Shown here: positions 2,017 through 35,665 of the stretch, piece by piece
How positions within the stretch are numbered: position 1 is the stretch's first letter
How the letters are laid out: the number at the start of each line of letters is the position of its first letter
Assembly: GCA_020721345.1 (NCBI GenBank)
Contig: DYMX01000004.1
Span: forward strand, 1-61,168
Length of the DNA: 61,168 nt
From: Sulfurovum sp.
GTDB taxonomy: Bacteria > Campylobacterota > Campylobacteria > Campylobacterales > Sulfurovaceae
Reading direction: 5' to 3'
Notes under the pieces: generated by a model
Databases searched by the model: none
What the model was told of the DNA's origin: nothing
The model's input: only the letters and a program-made list of their open reading frames with translations
Program-made: the position numbers and the translations under genes

Positions 2017-2856
2017 ATGGAAAAATTTAAAACATATTTTTTGATGATAGGATTAACGCTTCTTTTTGTATGGTTTGGAAGTTTTATAGGCGGTAAAACC
2101 GGTATGCTAATAGCATTTTTAATGACCGTAGGGATGAACTTTTATGCATACTATTATAGTGATGAACAGGTTTTAAAACATTATAATGCTATGCCTGTGG
2201 ATGAAAGTTCTGCCGGCGGTCTATATAAGATAGTAAGAGGCTTAACAACAAAAGCAAATCTGCCTATGCCAAAACTGTACATAATACAAGACGGCACTCC
2301 AAATGCATTTGCAACAGGCAGAAACTATGAGCATGCTACCGTTGCGGTAACGGAAGGTTTACTTGACCTCCTAAGCGCCGATGAAGTAGAAGCAGTTATC
2401 GCACATGAACTAAGCCATATCAAACACTATGATATGCTTATAGGAACCGTAGCTGCAACAATGGCTGGAGCTATTGCTATGCTTGGAAACTTCGGAATGT
2501 TTTTTGGCGGACACGGCAGTGATGAAGAAAGACCAAATCCTGTAGTAATGATAATTCTAATGCTTATAATGCCGCTTGCAGCAAGCATAGTTCAAATGAC
2601 AATCAGCAGAAGCAGGGAATTTATGGCAGATGAAGGCGCGGCAAAACTTACGGGTCATCCAGAATGGCTTCAAAGCGCACTTATAAAACTTGATAATTAT
2701 GCGCATGGCAATCTACTTCATGATGCACAGCCGCAAAATGCCCATATGTTTATCATAAATCCTTTTTTGGGTTTAGGCGGAAATATGAGAGAGCTTTTTA
2801 GCACTCACCCTACAACTGCGCAAAGAGTAGAGAGACTAGAAGCGCTAAAAATGTGA
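2017..2856 (+). CDS. htpX: Membrane zinc metalloprotease HtpX
   Basis: A 279-residue M48 peptidase that degrades misfolded inner-membrane proteins. Two hydrophobic segments lie near residues 5-25 and 30-46, and two more near 140-160 and 177-195. The zinc site HELSH is at 130-134, and the third ligand is probably Glu201 in the [11 protein letters not shown] segment. Length matches E. coli HtpX (293 aa). It follows the NfeD/SPFH pair with a 60-bp gap, making a plausible three-gene membrane stress unit. An AAAAGGA ribosome site precedes the ATG. Confidence 0.95.
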
Positions 2857-2867
2857 TATAATCTTTT

Positions 2868-2924
2868 ATGAAGATTGATAAGAAAATAAAACAAAAAATA
2901 TATCAAAGGGATGCAAATAGATGA
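2868..2924 (+). CDS. Possible 18-residue leader ORF overlapping the rnr start
   Basis: An ATG at 2868 opens an 18-codon, lysine-rich reading frame (starting MKIDKKIKQKIYQ). Its TGA overlaps the rnr ATG as ATGA. A TATAAT box at 2857-2862 would place the transcript start almost on this ATG, so it would be leaderless. It may be a coupled leader peptide or simply chance. No homologue is recognised. Confidence 0.25.
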   Translation: MKIDKKIKQKIYQRDANR

Positions 2925-4891
2925 ATGAATTTGCGCTCCAAATTACAAACGGTTGCAAAAAAAGCGATATAGAAGAAGAGTACATAGAAGCTTTTGATAA
3001 TTTAGAAAAAATAGATGCCATAAAAGAAGATAAAGACGGTCTTTTGAGGCTGTCTTCTCTTTATCGCATAGGCGAACTTTATATAAGCAAAGACGGTACG
3101 GGGTTTGTAGAATCCATACTAAAATCGGAGATCGACCTACTCATAGAGCCTGAAAATTTAAAAGGCTCAAAAAGAGGTGATCTAGTGGTCGCTAAAAGAA
3201 TTATTGCTAAAAGAGGCAGAGTAAGCGGAAAAATAATCTTAACCGCAAAAAAAGCATTTTTGTATAATTTGGCGTATATAAACATTGATGAATCAAAAAA
3301 TTTCTCCATTTTAAACTTGAGAACAAATGAACCGTTATCTGCATGGATGGGCGGGCTTGATTTGAAAACGCTTAAAAGCGGCACCGTTCTAAAAATAGAT
3401 GTTGATAATGATGAAGTAAAAGAGATTTTAGGCAATATCGATGATCCAAAAATAGATGAGAAAATATCTCTTATCCTCTATGATAGAGAAGATGAATTTC
3501 CAGTTTCGTGCTTAGAGCAGGCAAGCACTACTCCTTTAGAAGTAGACGGGGATGAATACCTAAATAGAATTGATTTGAGAAATTTGGATTTTTGCACCAT
3601 TGATCCTGTAACAGCAAAAGATTTTGACGATGCTATATATTTTGATACGGATAACTTTATACTATATGTTGCTATTGCGGATGTAAGTTATTATGTCGAT
3701 TATTTTTCTCCGATCGACATGGAAGCAAAGAAGAGAGGATTTACCACATACCTGCCTCATAAGGCTTTTCCTATGCTGCCGCGTGAACTTAGTGAAAATG
3801 TATGTTCCTTAAAACCTCGTGTTGACAGACTGGCTTTTGTATCAAAAGTAACGCTTGATAGAAATTCTTTGACTTCAAAAAGCGAAGAGTTCTTTGAGGC
3901 TGTCATTCATTCAAAACATAGATTTAACTACGATGAAGTCGATAAGCTCATAGAAACAAATGGGACCGAGGCTTCCGAGGTTGTAAAAAGACTTTGGACA
4001 AATCTTTCAAAACTTTACGATATCACAAAATCTCTAAGAGCCAAAAGACTAAAAAACGGTTTTGATTTTAGAACAGAAGAGATGAAGTTATCGATTGATA
4101 AAAATCATCTTTTAAAAAGCACTCAAATAGAAACAGGAACTCCATCTCATTCTCTTATAGAAGAGTGTATGCTGCTTGCGAACCAAGCATCCGCAAAAAA
4201 AGCCACCGGAGAAGAGTGGATTTTCAGAATTCATGAACCGCCTCAAATGTCAAAACTCGAAGAGCTTCTTTCAGAGCTTGCTACCATTGGATTATTTGTG
4301 GATGACTATAAAGACTCGCCTTCACTTATTAGGGCCATACAAAAAGAAGCGGTAAATCTTGGTTTGGAAAATGAGGTTGACTCTATGATCATAAAATCGC
4401 TAAAACAAGCTTCTTATGCGCCTCAGAATTTGGGGCATTTTGGGCTTGGCTTTACGCACTACAGCCACTTTACATCACCAATCAGAAGATATAGTGATCT
4501 AATACTGCATAGACTTATAAAAACACAATTAAACAGCGACTCAAAAGAGAGAGAATATCTGCTTAGAAACATATCTCCACTATGTGCTAGAGTAAGTGAG
4601 CTAGAGAGAAAAACGACAAAATGTGAATGGGATTTTAGAGATAGAAAATTTGCCAGATGGGCGGCTGCTCATAAGGATGAAATATTTGAAGCTGAAATAA
4701 TCGAGATACAGGACAATAATGCAAAAGCTGTGTTAAAAACAGATATAAGCGGTGTCGTTGTAAATGTAAAAAATGACGGCTTGCTTCTTTTTGAGAGGGT
4801 GCAAGTCTCAATCTATGAAGCCAATATAGCAATGGCTATGATCATGGCGAAAGTTGTTCAAAAATTATCAAAAGACCCTATGGAATTTTGA
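2921..4891 (+). CDS. rnr: Ribonuclease R (VacB/RNB family 3'-5' exoribonuclease)
   Basis: 656 residues. It degrades structured RNA processively from the 3' end and takes part in rRNA and tRNA quality control. N-terminal cold-shock-like regions cover about 45-200, and the RNB catalytic domain begins near 215 with the metal-binding motif DPVTAKDFDDA at 228-238. The HYSHFTSPIRRYSDLI block characteristic of the family is near residue 510. A C-terminal S1-like region follows. It is shorter than E. coli RNase R (813 aa), as is usual in Campylobacterota. The stop overlaps the next ATG by one base, so it is translationally coupled to holA. Confidence 0.95.
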   Translation: MNEFALQITNGCKKSDIEEEYIEAFDNLEKIDAIKEDKDGLLRLSSLYRIGELYISKDGTGFVESILKSEIDLLIEPENLKGSKRGDLVVAKRIIAKRGRVSGKIILTAKKAFLYNLAYINIDESKNFSILNLRTNEPLSAWMGGLDLKTLKSGTVLKIDVDNDEVKEILGNIDDPKIDEKISLILYDREDEFPVSCLEQASTTPLEVDGDEYLNRIDLRNLDFCTIDPVTAKDFDDAIYFDTDNFILYVAIADVSYYVDYFSPIDMEAKKRGFTTYLPHKAFPMLPRELSENVCSLKPRVDRLAFVSKVTLDRNSLTSKSEEFFEAVIHSKHRFNYDEVDKLIETNGTEASEVVKRLWTNLSKLYDITKSLRAKRLKNGFDFRTEEMKLSIDKNHLLKSTQIETGTPSHSLIEECMLLANQASAKKATGEEWIFRIHEPPQMSKLEELLSELATIGLFVDDYKDSPSLIRAIQKEAVNLGLENEVDSMIIKSLKQASYAPQNLGHFGLGFTHYSHFTSPIRRYSDLILHRLIKTQLNSDSKEREYLLRNISPLCARVSELERKTTKCEWDFRDRKFARWAAAHKDEIFEAEIIEIQDNNAKAVLKTDISGVVVNVKNDGLLLFERVQVSIYEANIAMAMIMAKVVQKLSKDPMEF

Positions 4892-5865
4892 TGTACAAAC
4901 AAGAATTTGAGCAAATACTAAAAACTAGGCTACCAAAGTCGGCTCTTTTTTACGGTGAAAATCAGTATGCGATAGAGCAGTATATAAATTTTTATATCAC
5001 AAAACTGCAAGCAAATGACGATAAATTGAATCTCTATTTTGATGATTATGATTTTGAAAAAGCAAAGTCTTATCTTTCCCAAAATTCACTTTTTGGCAAT
5101 ACGAATCTTCTGATCATAAAATCAGAAAAAACGATTGCCAAAAAAGAGCTTGAATCGCTGCTCGAGATGACTCAAAAAAGTCAAGATAATTATCTTCTTT
5201 ATATCTTTTTCGGATTATCAAAGGATATAAAAACATCAACTTCGCTATTTAGAAGCAATGATAGTGTTGAAGTCAGACTATTCGAGCCTAGTATTAAAGA
5301 TTCGATAATGATATTACAAAACAAAGCGAACCATATAGGTTTAAATATAGATTATTATGGGCTTGAATATCTGATAATAATGCTTGGTAACAACCTTATG
5401 CTTTGCAGCAATGAACTAGATAAACTAAATATCCTAAATAGAGAAATAACAACTAAAGATATAAATGAATTGGTTTTTTCTGAAACTCCTCTCTCCGCAG
5501 AAAAGCTCTTGATTGATGTTTGCAATAAAAAATTAGAGCCAAATACAATAAATACTCTTTTGAACTCAGGTGAAGATGCGAACAGCATACTAAGAGCAAC
5601 ACAAAATTTTTTAAATCAAATATTGCTTTTTCAGGCATATATCAAAATAAACGGTACTGTAAATTCGCAAGATATTCTTGGCTATAAACTGCCTAAGCAA
5701 ATCGAGGAACAAAAAGCGACATTGGCAAACCGCATAAAATCTTCAAAACTTTTAAAAGCTTTTGAATATGTTCTGCAATGTGAACTTGAAATAAAATCTG
5801 CATCAGCGCCACAGAAAGAGACACTGCTGTACTCTATGTTCATAGAACTGCAAAACATTTTATAA
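4891..5865 (+). CDS. holA: DNA polymerase III delta subunit (HolA)
   Basis: 324 residues. The delta subunit of the clamp loader opens the beta sliding clamp. It is a weakly conserved family; recognition rests on the opening MYKQEFEQILKTRLPKSALFYGEN, length close to E. coli HolA (343 aa), and the conserved rnr-holA adjacency in Campylobacter. The ATG at 4891 shares a base with the rnr stop; a TTG at 4888 is in frame but less likely. There is a gap of 80 bp to rpsF with a new promoter. Confidence 0.85.
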   Translation: MYKQEFEQILKTRLPKSALFYGENQYAIEQYINFYITKLQANDDKLNLYFDDYDFEKAKSYLSQNSLFGNTNLLIIKSEKTIAKKELESLLEMTQKSQDNYLLYIFFGLSKDIKTSTSLFRSNDSVEVRLFEPSIKDSIMILQNKANHIGLNIDYYGLEYLIIMLGNNLMLCSNELDKLNILNREITTKDINELVFSETPLSAEKLLIDVCNKKLEPNTINTLLNSGEDANSILRATQNFLNQILLFQAYIKINGTVNSQDILGYKLPKQIEEQKATLANRIKSSKLLKAFEYVLQCELEIKSASAPQKETLLYSMFIELQNIL

Positions 5866-7292: not shown

Positions 7293-7937
7293 CTATATAT
7301 TACCCAAACTATTACAATAAACAAAACTATCTACTACGGATTTTATTTTCTCATAAATAGAAAATATATCACCTTTTTTGGCATAAAAACTATTATTGTT
7401 TGCTATTAAGTGTGCTGAGGAATGCATAATATCTTCTGCAACCTTCAGTCCATTTTCTCTCATGGTTGCCCCAGTATCGACAATATCTACGATTGCATCA
7501 ACCAGTCCAACCAATGGAGCAAGCTCTATAGAGCCGTAAAGCTTTATAACTTCAACTCCTACTGCTCTTTTAGCAAAATAATCTTTCGTAATATTTACCA
7601 TTTTTGAAGCTACTTTTATATTTGGTCTACTCCAATCGATCTCATCTTCATTTTTGATCCCGATTGATACCCTGCAACGTCCTAGCTGCATATCAAGCAA
7701 GTCTATGATATCTAAACCTTGCTCTGTTATAACATCAAGCCCAACTACGCCCAAATCTGCCACCCCATGGGCAACATATGTCGGAACATCTTGGTTTCTG
7801 ACATTTAAAAATCTAAATCCATGCTCTTCTAAGATCAATTTCCTATTGTCAAATGCAAAATCAGTATTAAATATTTTAGAAAAAATTTCCAATGTTTCAT
7901 CTGCAATTCTTCCTTTTGGAAGCGCTATTGTTAGCAT
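7293..7937 (-). CDS. hisG: ATP phosphoribosyltransferase, short form
   Basis: 214 residues, beginning MLTIALPKGRIADETLEIF, with the EQGLDIIDLLDMQLGRCRV and VDIVDTGATMRENGL blocks of HisG. It catalyses the first step of histidine synthesis (PRPP plus ATP). This is the short form without the C-terminal regulatory domain, so by family knowledge it needs a HisZ partner, which is not in this window. Its start overlaps the end of coaX by 7 bp. The last residues (about 205-214) look poorly conserved. Confidence 0.95.
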   Translation of the reverse strand: MLTIALPKGRIADETLEIFSKIFNTDFAFDNRKLILEEHGFRFLNVRNQDVPTYVAHGVADLGVVGLDVITEQGLDIIDLLDMQLGRCRVSIGIKNEDEIDWSRPNIKVASKMVNITKDYFAKRAVGVEVIKLYGSIELAPLVGLVDAIVDIVDTGATMRENGLKVAEDIMHSSAHLIANNNSFYAKKGDIFSIYEKIKSVVDSFVYCNSLGNI

Positions 7938-31756: not shown

Positions 31757-32038
31757 CTATTTATCAATGCCAAGTTTGCCCAGTATATCATCATGCGAGA
31801 TAATTTTGCCATTTTCTCTTTCTTTTATTATTTTATATATCTCATGATACTCAAGTAACTCTCTAGCTTCACTTAATGCCTCATACTCTTCTATATCTAT
31901 GATGACAGCTTCTAGTTTATTGTTTCTTGATATAGCTATTTTGTCTTTTGTTTTTTTGGTGATGGAGTTGAGAATAGAGCTAAATGTTCTTGCCATATCA
32001 CTTGCACTTATGATTTCATCTTTTCTATATGCTATCAT
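31757..32038 (-). CDS. Phd/YefM-like antitoxin or regulator, no toxin beside it
   Basis: 93 residues from the ATG at 32038, which has AAAGG seven bases upstream; upstream in-frame ATGs lack this. The N-terminal Phd fold (MIAYRKDEIISASDMARTFS) is a prevent-host-death DNA-binding domain. The C-terminal part (ISHDDILGKLGIDK) matches the linker of antitoxins, but no toxin follows. Instead the next gene, 14 bp on, is anmK. It is driven by a consensus promoter and may have become the regulator of the recycling operon. Confidence 0.85.
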   Translation of the reverse strand: MIAYRKDEIISASDMARTFSSILNSITKKTKDKIAISRNNKLEAVIIDIEEYEALSEARELLEYHEIYKIIKERENGKIISHDDILGKLGIDK

Positions 32039-32066
32039 TTGCATACCTTTATGTATTATTTTGCAT

Positions 32067-32095
32067 ATTATACTACATATTTTTTTGTGTGTCAA
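32067..32095 (-). promoter_or_regulatory. Consensus sigma70 promoter of the phd-anmK-amgK-murU operon
   Basis: On the minus strand: TTGACA (32095-32090), 17-bp spacer, TATAAT (32072-32067). Both boxes are perfect E. coli consensus, which is very unusual in a genome whose other -35 boxes are weak. An imperfect ATGTA...TACAT inverted repeat surrounds the -10 and start site and could be the operator of the Phd protein. Confidence 0.75.
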
Positions 32096-32206
32096 TGGTA
32101 CTCGAATAAAATTATAAGTGCAAGTCCTATCCTAAATAGTACATCTGTTTGATTTTATCAATTCTATTAACAACACCGACCTGCAAAAGTTGGTATCAAT
32201 AACAAA

Positions 32207-32731
32207 TTAATCATTTGGAATCAGTTTAGAAAATGCATCTTTCAAGAAAAATCTTAATAAATTTTTACTACTCTTTGAAGTTACGCTAATACTACAAATA
32301 TCAGCATGTGAAAACAAATCAATCATTGCTGTATCATATATTGCCATGGCTCTTTTTGAGTCTACAACATATTCACGAATAGTTTTTGCCTGAACTCTAA
32401 TATAGCCATGATATCCGTGTGTATCTTTTTTCTTATTTTTGCCAATCTCAATAATTTTGGCAGTATCGACTTGATTGCACCGTAAAACCGAAAGTCCCTT
32501 GTTTAATATGTCGTCAAATGCTAAAGTAGTTAAACTTCCAGTACTTATATCATAATGATGGGGAGAAAAAATATTTCGTGCTAATCCTTCATCGTCTTTT
32601 ACAGTGCCGCAAGAGTACGAACTAACACTTTCTTTTTCCCACTCTAATGATTGTTCATAATTTTCAGTCAGGTAATGACATTTTGCAAAGGATAACTCTG
32701 GATTGTTAAAAAAATCCTTTGCAGATTCCAA
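32207..32731 (-). CDS. Uncharacterised protein, third gene of TIGR04255 cassette
   Basis: 174 residues, no signal or membrane segment. Features seen are an acidic N-terminus, LTTLAFDDILNKGLSVLRCN near residues 68-87, and HGYHGYIRVQAKTIREY near 105-121, with FSHADI near 139. The S/T-x-x-AF...LSV...A...H pattern recalls families of small hypothetical proteins found scattered across bacteria. No catalytic motif is assigned. It begins 11 bp after the 176-aa gene and is clearly co-transcribed. Confidence 0.65.
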   Translation of the reverse strand: MESAKDFFNNPELSFAKCHYLTENYEQSLEWEKESVSSYSCGTVKDDEGLARNIFSPHHYDISTGSLTTLAFDDILNKGLSVLRCNQVDTAKIIEIGKNKKKDTHGYHGYIRVQAKTIREYVVDSKRAMAIYDTAMIDLFSHADICSISVTSKSSKNLLRFFLKDAFSKLIPND

Positions 32732-32742
32732 AGTATAAAGCC

Positions 32743-33273
32743 TTATGCATTTCTATTAATATGAGAAATTCTTGTGGTTAAATCGCTTGAAAAAGCACCA
32801 TTTATGGCTTTATCTTCTTCGATAAAAGGAACTTTGTCCTTCATATATACAAATGTGTATGCTTCTGAATTATCACACGTTATTTCAGCATATTCATTTC
32901 CATTTTCCCAATAAAAACCAATCTCACCTGAACCTGATAACATTAATTTTGGCGCTTTAAATACATAGTTTTTACATTGCAATAATAATTTCTCACATGC
33001 ACTGATGATGTCAAAAGTCGGTGCTTTTCCCCCGTAACCATCCCAATCATATTGTAAAGACAAATAACTATGTAATATATTTATAGCATTTATATATGCA
33101 TCACTAAAAATTAGGTCTTTAGATTTCGATATGGAATATATTGGTTTAAATGATGTACTTGTATCTTTTGTCTGTACTTCAATGTCTACTGATGGAAAAG
33201 TAGGGATCGCACTAATTTGGGTTGCTGGCATTGTCAAAGCCATTGCTGTTGAAATTACGGTAGCAGTAATCAT
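32743..33273 (-). CDS. Uncharacterised protein with DWDGYGG motif, second gene of cassette
   Basis: 176 residues. The N-terminus (about 1-30) is hydrophobic and could be a weak signal or hydrophobic lead. The core has YDWDGYGGKAPTFDI near residues 75-89, SGSGEIGFYWENGNEYAEI near 113-131, and a beta-rich C-terminus. The WDGYGA...PS...DGEI.FEW pattern recurs in small unknown proteins of many genomes, as far as I recall. The ATG overlaps the TIGR04255 stop by 4 bp (ATGA). Function unknown. Confidence 0.65.
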   Translation of the reverse strand: MITATVISTAMALTMPATQISAIPTFPSVDIEVQTKDTSTSFKPIYSISKSKDLIFSDAYINAINILHSYLSLQYDWDGYGGKAPTFDIISACEKLLLQCKNYVFKAPKLMLSGSGEIGFYWENGNEYAEITCDNSEAYTFVYMKDKVPFIEEDKAINGAFSSDLTTRISHINRNA

Positions 33274-34079
33274 TTTTCACACCCTAAATCAATTCTTTTA
33301 CAAATTTCTGCTGATAATAAATTGCACATTACTTCTTTATTTAACAGATGATTTTTTTCAATGATTGGTTTAATTGCACTGATCACACCTGATGAGTTAG
33401 TAGAAACTGGAATTAAATTCGAGCAAGTTGTTTTATGGTGCGTTTGTATAACAACTTTGGGACTCATTTTTTCATCTAAAAAATAATTCATATTGATATT
33501 ATTTAAAATTTTATGCTCATGATTTGAAAAATACCCTTGGTGAATGTGCCAAAAATCATCTTTAGACCATATGTGATTTGGAATGAAATCATTTCCTTCT
33601 CTAAATAATTCTTTTTTCCAATCTTTTGTAGCATCAGAAATTCCGAACTCATCAATATACTCTATCCCAATTTCTTGAATATTATTACCTTCTAATGCAG
33701 GCATAAAAAAGTCTATATATTTTTTTACTGTAGCCCACACTTCATCCCATCTGGTGTAATCACTAGACCCAATAGTTAAAAAATTATTTGCTAAATTAAC
33801 AAACCATTTCTGTCTTCCATCAGGTAATAAAGTGTCAAATATGACTCCATTCATCATTGGAGAGTGTATATTTTGTGGCTGTTCTATCATATCGCCAATC
33901 TGAAAACTAATCATATTTTGTGGCTGACATCTTGGTAATTTGTCAATCATATCAGGAGTGTTTTGATAATTAGTAATGACATTTTTAATAACAGCATCAT
34001 TTATTGGTGCTGACAAAACAAAAATAAACGCAACTTTTTCAATTGCGTTATTACTATTTTGAAGAATAATATTACTCAT
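33270..34079 (-). CDS. TIGR04255-like protein, first gene of cassette
   Basis: 269 residues, soluble. It fits the sporadically distributed TIGR04255 family: FLTIGSSDYTRWDEVWATVKKY and an IGIEYIDEF segment near residues 136-144, plus a beta-rich middle. The family has no established function and appears patchily, often in variable genome regions. The three cassette genes are visibly more AT-rich than neighbours (by count 23% GC at 33301-33360 against 43% at 34501-34560). The cassette lies between a symporter and the recycling operon, suggesting insertion. Confidence 0.7.
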   Translation of the reverse strand: MSNIILQNSNNAIEKVAFIFVLSAPINDAVIKNVITNYQNTPDMIDKLPRCQPQNMISFQIGDMIEQPQNIHSPMMNGVIFDTLLPDGRQKWFVNLANNFLTIGSSDYTRWDEVWATVKKYIDFFMPALEGNNIQEIGIEYIDEFGISDATKDWKKELFREGNDFIPNHIWSKDDFWHIHQGYFSNHEHKILNNINMNYFLDEKMSPKVVIQTHHKTTCSNLIPVSTNSSGVISAIKPIIEKNHLLNKEVMCNLLSAEICKRIDLGCEK

Positions 34080-34171
34080 TTACCAAGCTCCACATTTTTA
34101 ATTTTATATAATATTATTACATAAAGACTTAAAACAAAATAGTCAAATACATAAAATATCATTTATTGCTT

Positions 34172-35665
34172 TCATCCTCCCCCCACCATCATAACCCCAA
34201 ACGAAACAATTGTCCCTATGATTATCTGCATCGCAAAGTTCACATCAAGATCAAAAAGCGATTTTGTGATATATGGCTGCAATAATAATACTGTCATAAA
34301 TCCGGCAATAAGAGCAGCTCTGACACTTCTCTCATCACCTCTTTTCGTCCATAATGCCGCCCCATAAACTCCGAGCAACCCCGCATATGCAAAGACCATC
34401 ACGCCAAGCGCGAAATCAAGCAGCGGTATGTCGCTGACTCTTTGCCAATAGTAACTCAAAATTGCCATAAGCGCAAGCGCAAGCGCTGATGTAAGCACGC
34501 CCGCCCTTGATGCTTTTAGGTAGTGCTCATCTGATCTTCCGCTAAACATCGGTTTATAAATATCCGTTACAGCCACAGACGACATAGCTCCTAGGACTGA
34601 GCTTGTACTTGTAAATGTTGTTGCCACGACACCGATAGTAGCAAGCGCTTTGAAGCCATCTGGAAGTTCATGGAGGATATAGGTCATAAAGATAGCTATC
34701 TTTTCGCCTGCAAAATTTTGATCGACCTCGCTGCTAAAGCCTGAGAGCTCCGGATGTTGATAGAACAGATACAAAAGCAGTCCAATGATCAAAAACAAAG
34801 ATGCAGTTGGAATGGTGATGAGGATAGAAACAATAAGAGATCTTGCGCCTTCTCTCTTGTCTTTGCAGGTAAGAATACGCTGTGTCATATCCTGATCGAG
34901 CCCATAAGCTGCGATATTTAAAAGTAGTAGTCCGCTTATAAGCGCCCAAAAGTTATAACTTCCTGTTAATGAAAAATCAATGATCTTAAGCTTATCGCTT
35001 GAAGCAAGCGTGGAGTAAATCAACTCTATATCGCCTCCGAGAGCGCTAAAAAGATGATAAATGATAAAAAGTGCCGCCCCTATATAGATAATGACTTGAA
35101 CGATATCGGCAAATATGATGGATTTGATGCCTCCAAAATATGCATATCCAAGTGAACCTGCCATCAAAACAACAATAGCAAAAATCATATGAATCGGTGC
35201 AATATCACTAAAAAGTATCATAGATACAGCAAGAGCGCCGATGTAAAGTCTTGCTCCGCTGGCAAAGAGCCTGCCGACTAGAAACATCATCCCTGCATCT
35301 CTTTTGGCTTGTCCTCCATATCTCTTCTCTAAAAGTTCATAAACAGTGATAGCGCCTATATCGTAAAATTTTGGCACCAAGACTTTAGATACTATGATAA
35401 CTGCCAAAAGTGCTGAAAAGAAAAAACCCACAAATGTGAGATTTCCGCCGTATGATGACTCCGGAGCGCCAAGAAATGTTGCGGCTGACTGGGAAGTAGC
35501 AAGAACTGAGATAGCAACCGCAAACATCGGAAGAGATTTTTCGCTGACAAAATAATCTTTTGAATTTTTAACCTTTACTCGAGCAAGCCACACGGACGAG
35601 ATAATTACTAAAAGAAAATAAGATCCAAAAATCACCCAGTCAACTGTGCTAAAAGATGAATTCAT
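34172..35665 (-). CDS. Sodium:solute symporter family transporter
   Basis: 497 residues with about 13 membrane helices, starting SSFSTVDWVIFGSYFLLVII. SSS signatures include SVLATSQSAATFLGAPESSY near 53-72 and ARLYIGALAVSM. The family couples Na+ to uptake of sugars, amino acids or sialic acid. It overlaps the amidase gene by 4 bp, and beyond the TIGR04255 cassette the next genes are anmK, amgK and murU. The substrate is likely a cell-wall sugar, but this is inference from context only. Confidence 0.88.
   Translation of the reverse strand: MNSSFSTVDWVIFGSYFLLVIISSVWLARVKVKNSKDYFVSEKSLPMFAVAISVLATSQSAATFLGAPESSYGGNLTFVGFFFSALLAVIIVSKVLVPKFYDIGAITVYELLEKRYGGQAKRDAGMMFLVGRLFASGARLYIGALAVSMILFSDIAPIHMIFAIVVLMAGSLGYAYFGGIKSIIFADIVQVIIYIGAALFIIYHLFSALGGDIELIYSTLASSDKLKIIDFSLTGSYNFWALISGLLLLNIAAYGLDQDMTQRILTCKDKREGARSLIVSILITIPTASLFLIIGLLLYLFYQHPELSGFSSEVDQNFAGEKIAIFMTYILHELPDGFKALATIGVVATTFTSTSSVLGAMSSVAVTDIYKPMFSGRSDEHYLKASRAGVLTSALALALMAILSYYWQRVSDIPLLDFALGVMVFAYAGLLGVYGAALWTKRGDERSVRAALIAGFMTVLLLQPYITKSLFDLDVNFAMQIIIGTIVSFGVMMVGGG

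Follow-up and report, generated by a model that had tools for sequence, protein, structure and literature searches.

A compact three-gene cassette in the window, the whole 61,168-nucleotide stretch of Sulfurovum sp. DNA analysed here, is probably an unrecognised anti-virus system of toxin-like character, as judged by sequence comparison. The three genes are intact and lie in tandem on the reverse strand (34079–32207): gene 1 (33270–34079) encodes a TIGR04255-family protein of 269 aa, the proposed sensor or adaptor and shared core of the module; gene 2 (32743–33273) encodes a 176-aa DWDGYGG-motif protein, the proposed partner or neutraliser of gene 3; and gene 3 (32207–32731) encodes a 174-aa protein, the proposed effector. 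Our favoured reading, held with moderate confidence, is an immune module of toxin type with three components that spreads by horizontal transfer, because the trio recurs in fixed order in unrelated bacteria and viruses, and in sister versions its third gene is swapped for known RNA-cutting toxin types. The host genome is small (1.24 Mb), and its GTDB genus includes Sulfurovum sp. C5 (Campylobacterota).

A preliminary description of this DNA had reported three tightly packed genes led by a TIGR04255-like protein, and both points were borne out: the ORFs show a 4-bp overlap between genes 1 and 2 and an 11-bp gap between genes 2 and 3, and gene 1 scores above the curated cut-off of the NCBIfam TIGR04255 model (46.5 bits against 30; E = 4e-12). 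Compared with four homologous copies, each of the three genes has a dN/dS of 0.12–0.36, and therefore they are real genes under purifying selection. The same description had called the cassette AT-rich, at 23% GC against 43% nearby. The cassette is indeed below the window mean (30.8% versus 35.7% GC, with 22 of 593 sliding windows equally low), but the earlier figures were an extreme sample and the true contrast is modest. GC3 is about 21–23% in the cassette genes versus 29–38% in their neighbours.

The cassette separates anmK from the symporter and amidase genes, as first described, and shares this gap with a remnant Phd–RelE module. In the sister genome G009, whose flanks have ~88% nucleotide identity, the same locus reads kinase, anmK, RelE, Phd, a small XRE-type ORF, symporter, amidase and hemL, without the cassette. 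Comparison of the window with this locus (L051) by blastn left positions ~32178–34185 unmatched, marking them as a foreign segment missing at the syntenic site, where 516 other bases occupy its place. Elsewhere in the genus (L052–L055), the anmK–symporter gap holds different cargo, namely another toxin-antitoxin-like pair, a 3.6-kb insert (L053; with a restriction-endonuclease-like gene, named by eye from its sequence) or single ORFs, and the gap is thus a variable site. As a separate observation, the Phd-family antitoxin gene of the window, which lies outside the trio (31757–32095, reverse strand; Pfam PhdYeFM, 33.9 bits), stands without a RelE-like toxin, whereas in G009 the pair is complete at the corresponding site (4088–4644 of L051). 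A perfect TTGACA-17-TATAAT promoter match also lies at 32095–32067 on the reverse strand.

Two related cassettes are flanked by direct repeats. In L019, 300-nt repeats of 92% identity (68–367 and 2735–3034) duplicate the 3′ end of a neighbouring integrase gene, and in L017, 87-nt repeats of 82% identity (5463–5549 and 7780–7866) duplicate the 3′ end of a neighbouring P-type ATPase gene. These repeats suggest a trace of insertion, by a specific insertion or recombination route.

Among 298 sampled genomes of the phylum, TIGR04255 was found in 7, gene 2 in 3 and a clear gene 3 in 4. Every gene 2 lies within a trio, and the lone clear gene 3 outside one belongs to a locus (L032) that ends where genes 1 and 2 would lie. 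A scan of GTDB genomes yielded nine further trios (L012–L020) in identical order, each with flanks of its own; the L014 trio comes from a Victivallales MAG, and three genomes of that MAG's phylum (L070–L072) carry TIGR04255 together with a WD-G-type gene 2 and a gene 3 relative. Proteins 1, 2 and 3 of the window share 90, 85 and 86% amino acid identity with those of a Sulfurimonas copy (L017), against 68% for HemL; compared with a copy from the same genus (L012), the trio shares about 30% identity and HemL 87%. Such identities are of the kind left by horizontal transfer. The cassette moves between genera and into prophages. Pairwise distances of the three genes are correlated (Mantel r 0.76–0.85 after dereplication, p<0.001), and the trio is therefore inherited whole. 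The idea of a self-contained, patchily distributed unit is strongly supported by the nine additional trios with their varied flanks, the empty site in the sister genome, the transfer-type identities and this co-variation; the three families do co-occur elsewhere, both in those nine genomes and on a number of prophage and phage contigs. Plasmid searches with genes 1, 2 and 3 of the window and its relatives did not recover the trio, the sole match being a TIGR04255 gene with different partners on a Phocaeicola plasmid.

Several copies are associated with viruses. In L025, the trio lies between a gpA-like replication gene (phrog_91) and a portal gene (phrog_68), a position that corresponds to the gpA–gpQ interval of P2-like phages, a hotspot for phage defence genes (PMC9122126). 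The L016 trio belongs to a prophage of Arcobacter, where a terminase gene and a portal gene flank it. An integrase gene adjoins the trio on three viral contigs (L024, L026 and L027), integrase sequence lies alongside those of L021 and L089, and three phage copies of gene 1 match TIGR04255 at 44–52 bits. The earlier guess of anti-phage defence gains indirect support from the prophage and P2-hotspot sites, and also from the HEPN/PIN-type swaps and the kinship with PDC-M32 described below. The locations give a mixed picture: a prophage hotspot or defence setting is seen for L025, for L016 and for the integrase-adjacent phage copies, but most Campylobacterota copies sit amid housekeeping genes and not in defence islands, which tells against a defence role.

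TIGR04255 is an NCBIfam model for a sporadically distributed family to which no function is given, and no paper naming it was found in the literature searched; the modularity of its operons is described here. Other TIGR04255 loci retain a small gene 2 and differ in the slot of gene 3. This slot holds a HEPN-like gene in five loci (L003–L006 and L067), although these calls are weak (PADLOC 4e-4; Pfam 5e-4, below cut-off) and the R-x6-H motif is broken in some copies. It holds a PIN gene in L074 (Pfam 2.8e-11), an NlpC/P60-like gene in L007 and L010 (a likeness seen by eye only) and a member of another family in L056 and L038. The type of gene 2 changes together with that of gene 3 across these loci. 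At the level of sequence, then, TIGR04255 is the constant part of the operon and the gene after gene 2 is exchangeable. In L010 (127–1088), a TIGR04255 operon of a different type adjoins a Vsr-like endonuclease gene and a further small uncharacterised gene.

Genes 2 and 3 matched no Pfam or NCBIfam family, and gene 3 matched no PADLOC model. Gene 3 nevertheless carries a conserved set of residues (E48-x3-R52, AF, S81VLR84, R119, D133-x-A135 and H142 in alignment A9), with E32, S40, E48, R52, S81, R84, G109, R119, D133, A135 and H142 invariant or nearly so, which looks like a putative active or binding site. Its profile (A9) matches the gene 3 family of L070–L072 (P = 1e-7, profile–profile) and, by profile–profile comparison only, PDC-M32B (P = 6e-5), the hhalign probability of the PDC-M32 links being about 65%. 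Gene 2 matches PADLOC PDC-M32A with E = 0.0011 for the window copy and 1e-8 for relatives, and with P = 6.7e-5 in profile–profile comparison; the window protein aligns with profile positions 270–343 only, out of 375 aa, and so falls short of full-length membership. Searches of Pfam, NCBIfam and the PDB gave no homology between gene 3 and any known type II toxin-antitoxin toxin.

AlphaFold2 models were obtained for genes 1 and 3 (mean pLDDT 87 and pLDDT 82), and neither matched a solved structure: gene 1 had no trustworthy match among PDB folds, none with E<0.001, and gene 3 matched no solved or viral fold at that threshold. Two assignments of gene 1 were rejected, a helix-grip/START-type fold because its weak matches had a TM of about 0.15, and a SecB-like chaperone because neither profile nor model matched any SecB in the PDB.

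The trio as a whole matched no system in PADLOC v2.0 (2023 version). One of the nearest known systems is PDC-M32, in which the C terminus of PDC-M32A carries a gene 2-type domain and is followed, in the same order, by PDC-M32B with the R...AF...LSV...H pattern of gene 3. PDC-M32 differs in having two genes rather than three, in models that give no hit to genes 1 and 3 of the window, and in its type I restriction-modification neighbours: its genes follow an HsdM-type gene in L075, L076 and L077, with an HsdS-type gene after the pair in L076 (Hsd names read from sequence). The N terminus of PDC-M32A was considered as a TIGR04255 domain and rejected, as profile comparison gave E = 0.5 and the domain differs. 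Gene 2 is a remote relative of the PDC-M32A C-terminal domain and gene 3 of PDC-M32B, a pair that in the sources consulted is itself a PADLOC phage-defence candidate only. Rst_3HP, three hypothetical proteins from the P2-like hotspot that protect E. coli from P1 (PMC9122126), resembles the L025 trio by description, the only level of comparison, in its three genes, the lack of clear domains and the phage hotspot. A DNA search of E. coli genomes, however, found no match to the L025 or L089 trios.

Under the proposed mechanism, gene 3 would be a toxic effector that halts growth of the infected cell, gene 2 its cognate partner, keeping it inactive or positioning it, and the TIGR04255 protein a sensor or adaptor that would free gene 3 upon phage infection. 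This logic would be akin to that of toxin-antitoxin-chaperone systems; with CmdTAC-type defence (PMC11618068), the trio would share only the proposed scheme of an exchangeable toxin, a partner and a gating third protein. A bolder extension, which we hold tentatively and put somewhat short of even, is that TIGR04255 marks a superfamily, not described before, of immune operons built from modules (core, adaptor gene 2 and exchangeable effector gene 3) and that gene 3 is an effector enzyme of new fold shared with PDC-M32.

The same architecture of three small co-directional genes with an exchangeable, toxin-like third could belong to a selfish addiction module, spreading on mobile DNA like a toxin-antitoxin system without a specific anti-phage role. 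Insertions scattered beside housekeeping genes and Phd–RelE modules nearby at two loci fit this account, but prophage positions, among them the defence hotspot of P2-like phages, favour defence, as do restriction-modification genes adjoining relatives of genes 2 and 3, and we consider it unlikely, although a realistic alternative. Phage integrases and structural genes next to some copies could instead point to a phage 'moron' cassette with a role in lysogeny, replication or assembly, passively domesticated in chromosomes. That origin appears improbable: phage genes are absent from the surroundings of most genomic copies, HEPN/PIN swaps of the third gene are difficult to account for, and gene 1 of three relatives found no match among 50,697 phage records, so gene 1 is not a common phage gene.

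The position between anmK and the symporter/amidase genes, together with a hydrophobic gene 2 N terminus in many copies, might suggest an envelope or murein function tied to this neighbourhood, with gene 2 exported. Yet sister genomes retain the murein locus without the cassette, and homologues that lie in cob or trp surroundings, in phage DNA and elsewhere refute a conserved linkage. The hydrophobic N terminus, moreover, is neither universal nor more than weakly above shuffles, and a murein role seems very improbable. A common signal-like N terminus of gene 2 was itself rejected (hydropathy >1.6 in 12 of 25 copies, several lacking it; single-protein shuffles mostly p 0.03 or more). An immune module remains the best reading because of the shared core with its exchangeable RNase-type gene 3, the accompanying change of gene 2, the prophage positions and the restriction-modification-linked candidate. 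It would give a long-unassigned, 'sporadic' family a concrete, testable candidate role, that of the invariant element in a modular and mobile system, and would tie the family to a candidate (PDC-M32) from restriction-modification loci. If defence holds true, a function could be assigned to many hypothetical proteins, and an effector of unfamiliar chemistry would come to light.

A stand-alone homologue of gene 2 (116 aa) was also observed on a phage contig (L023, 3998–4348), where genes 1 and 3 are not beside it. If gene 2 neutralises gene 3, this homologue could be a counter-defence mimic.
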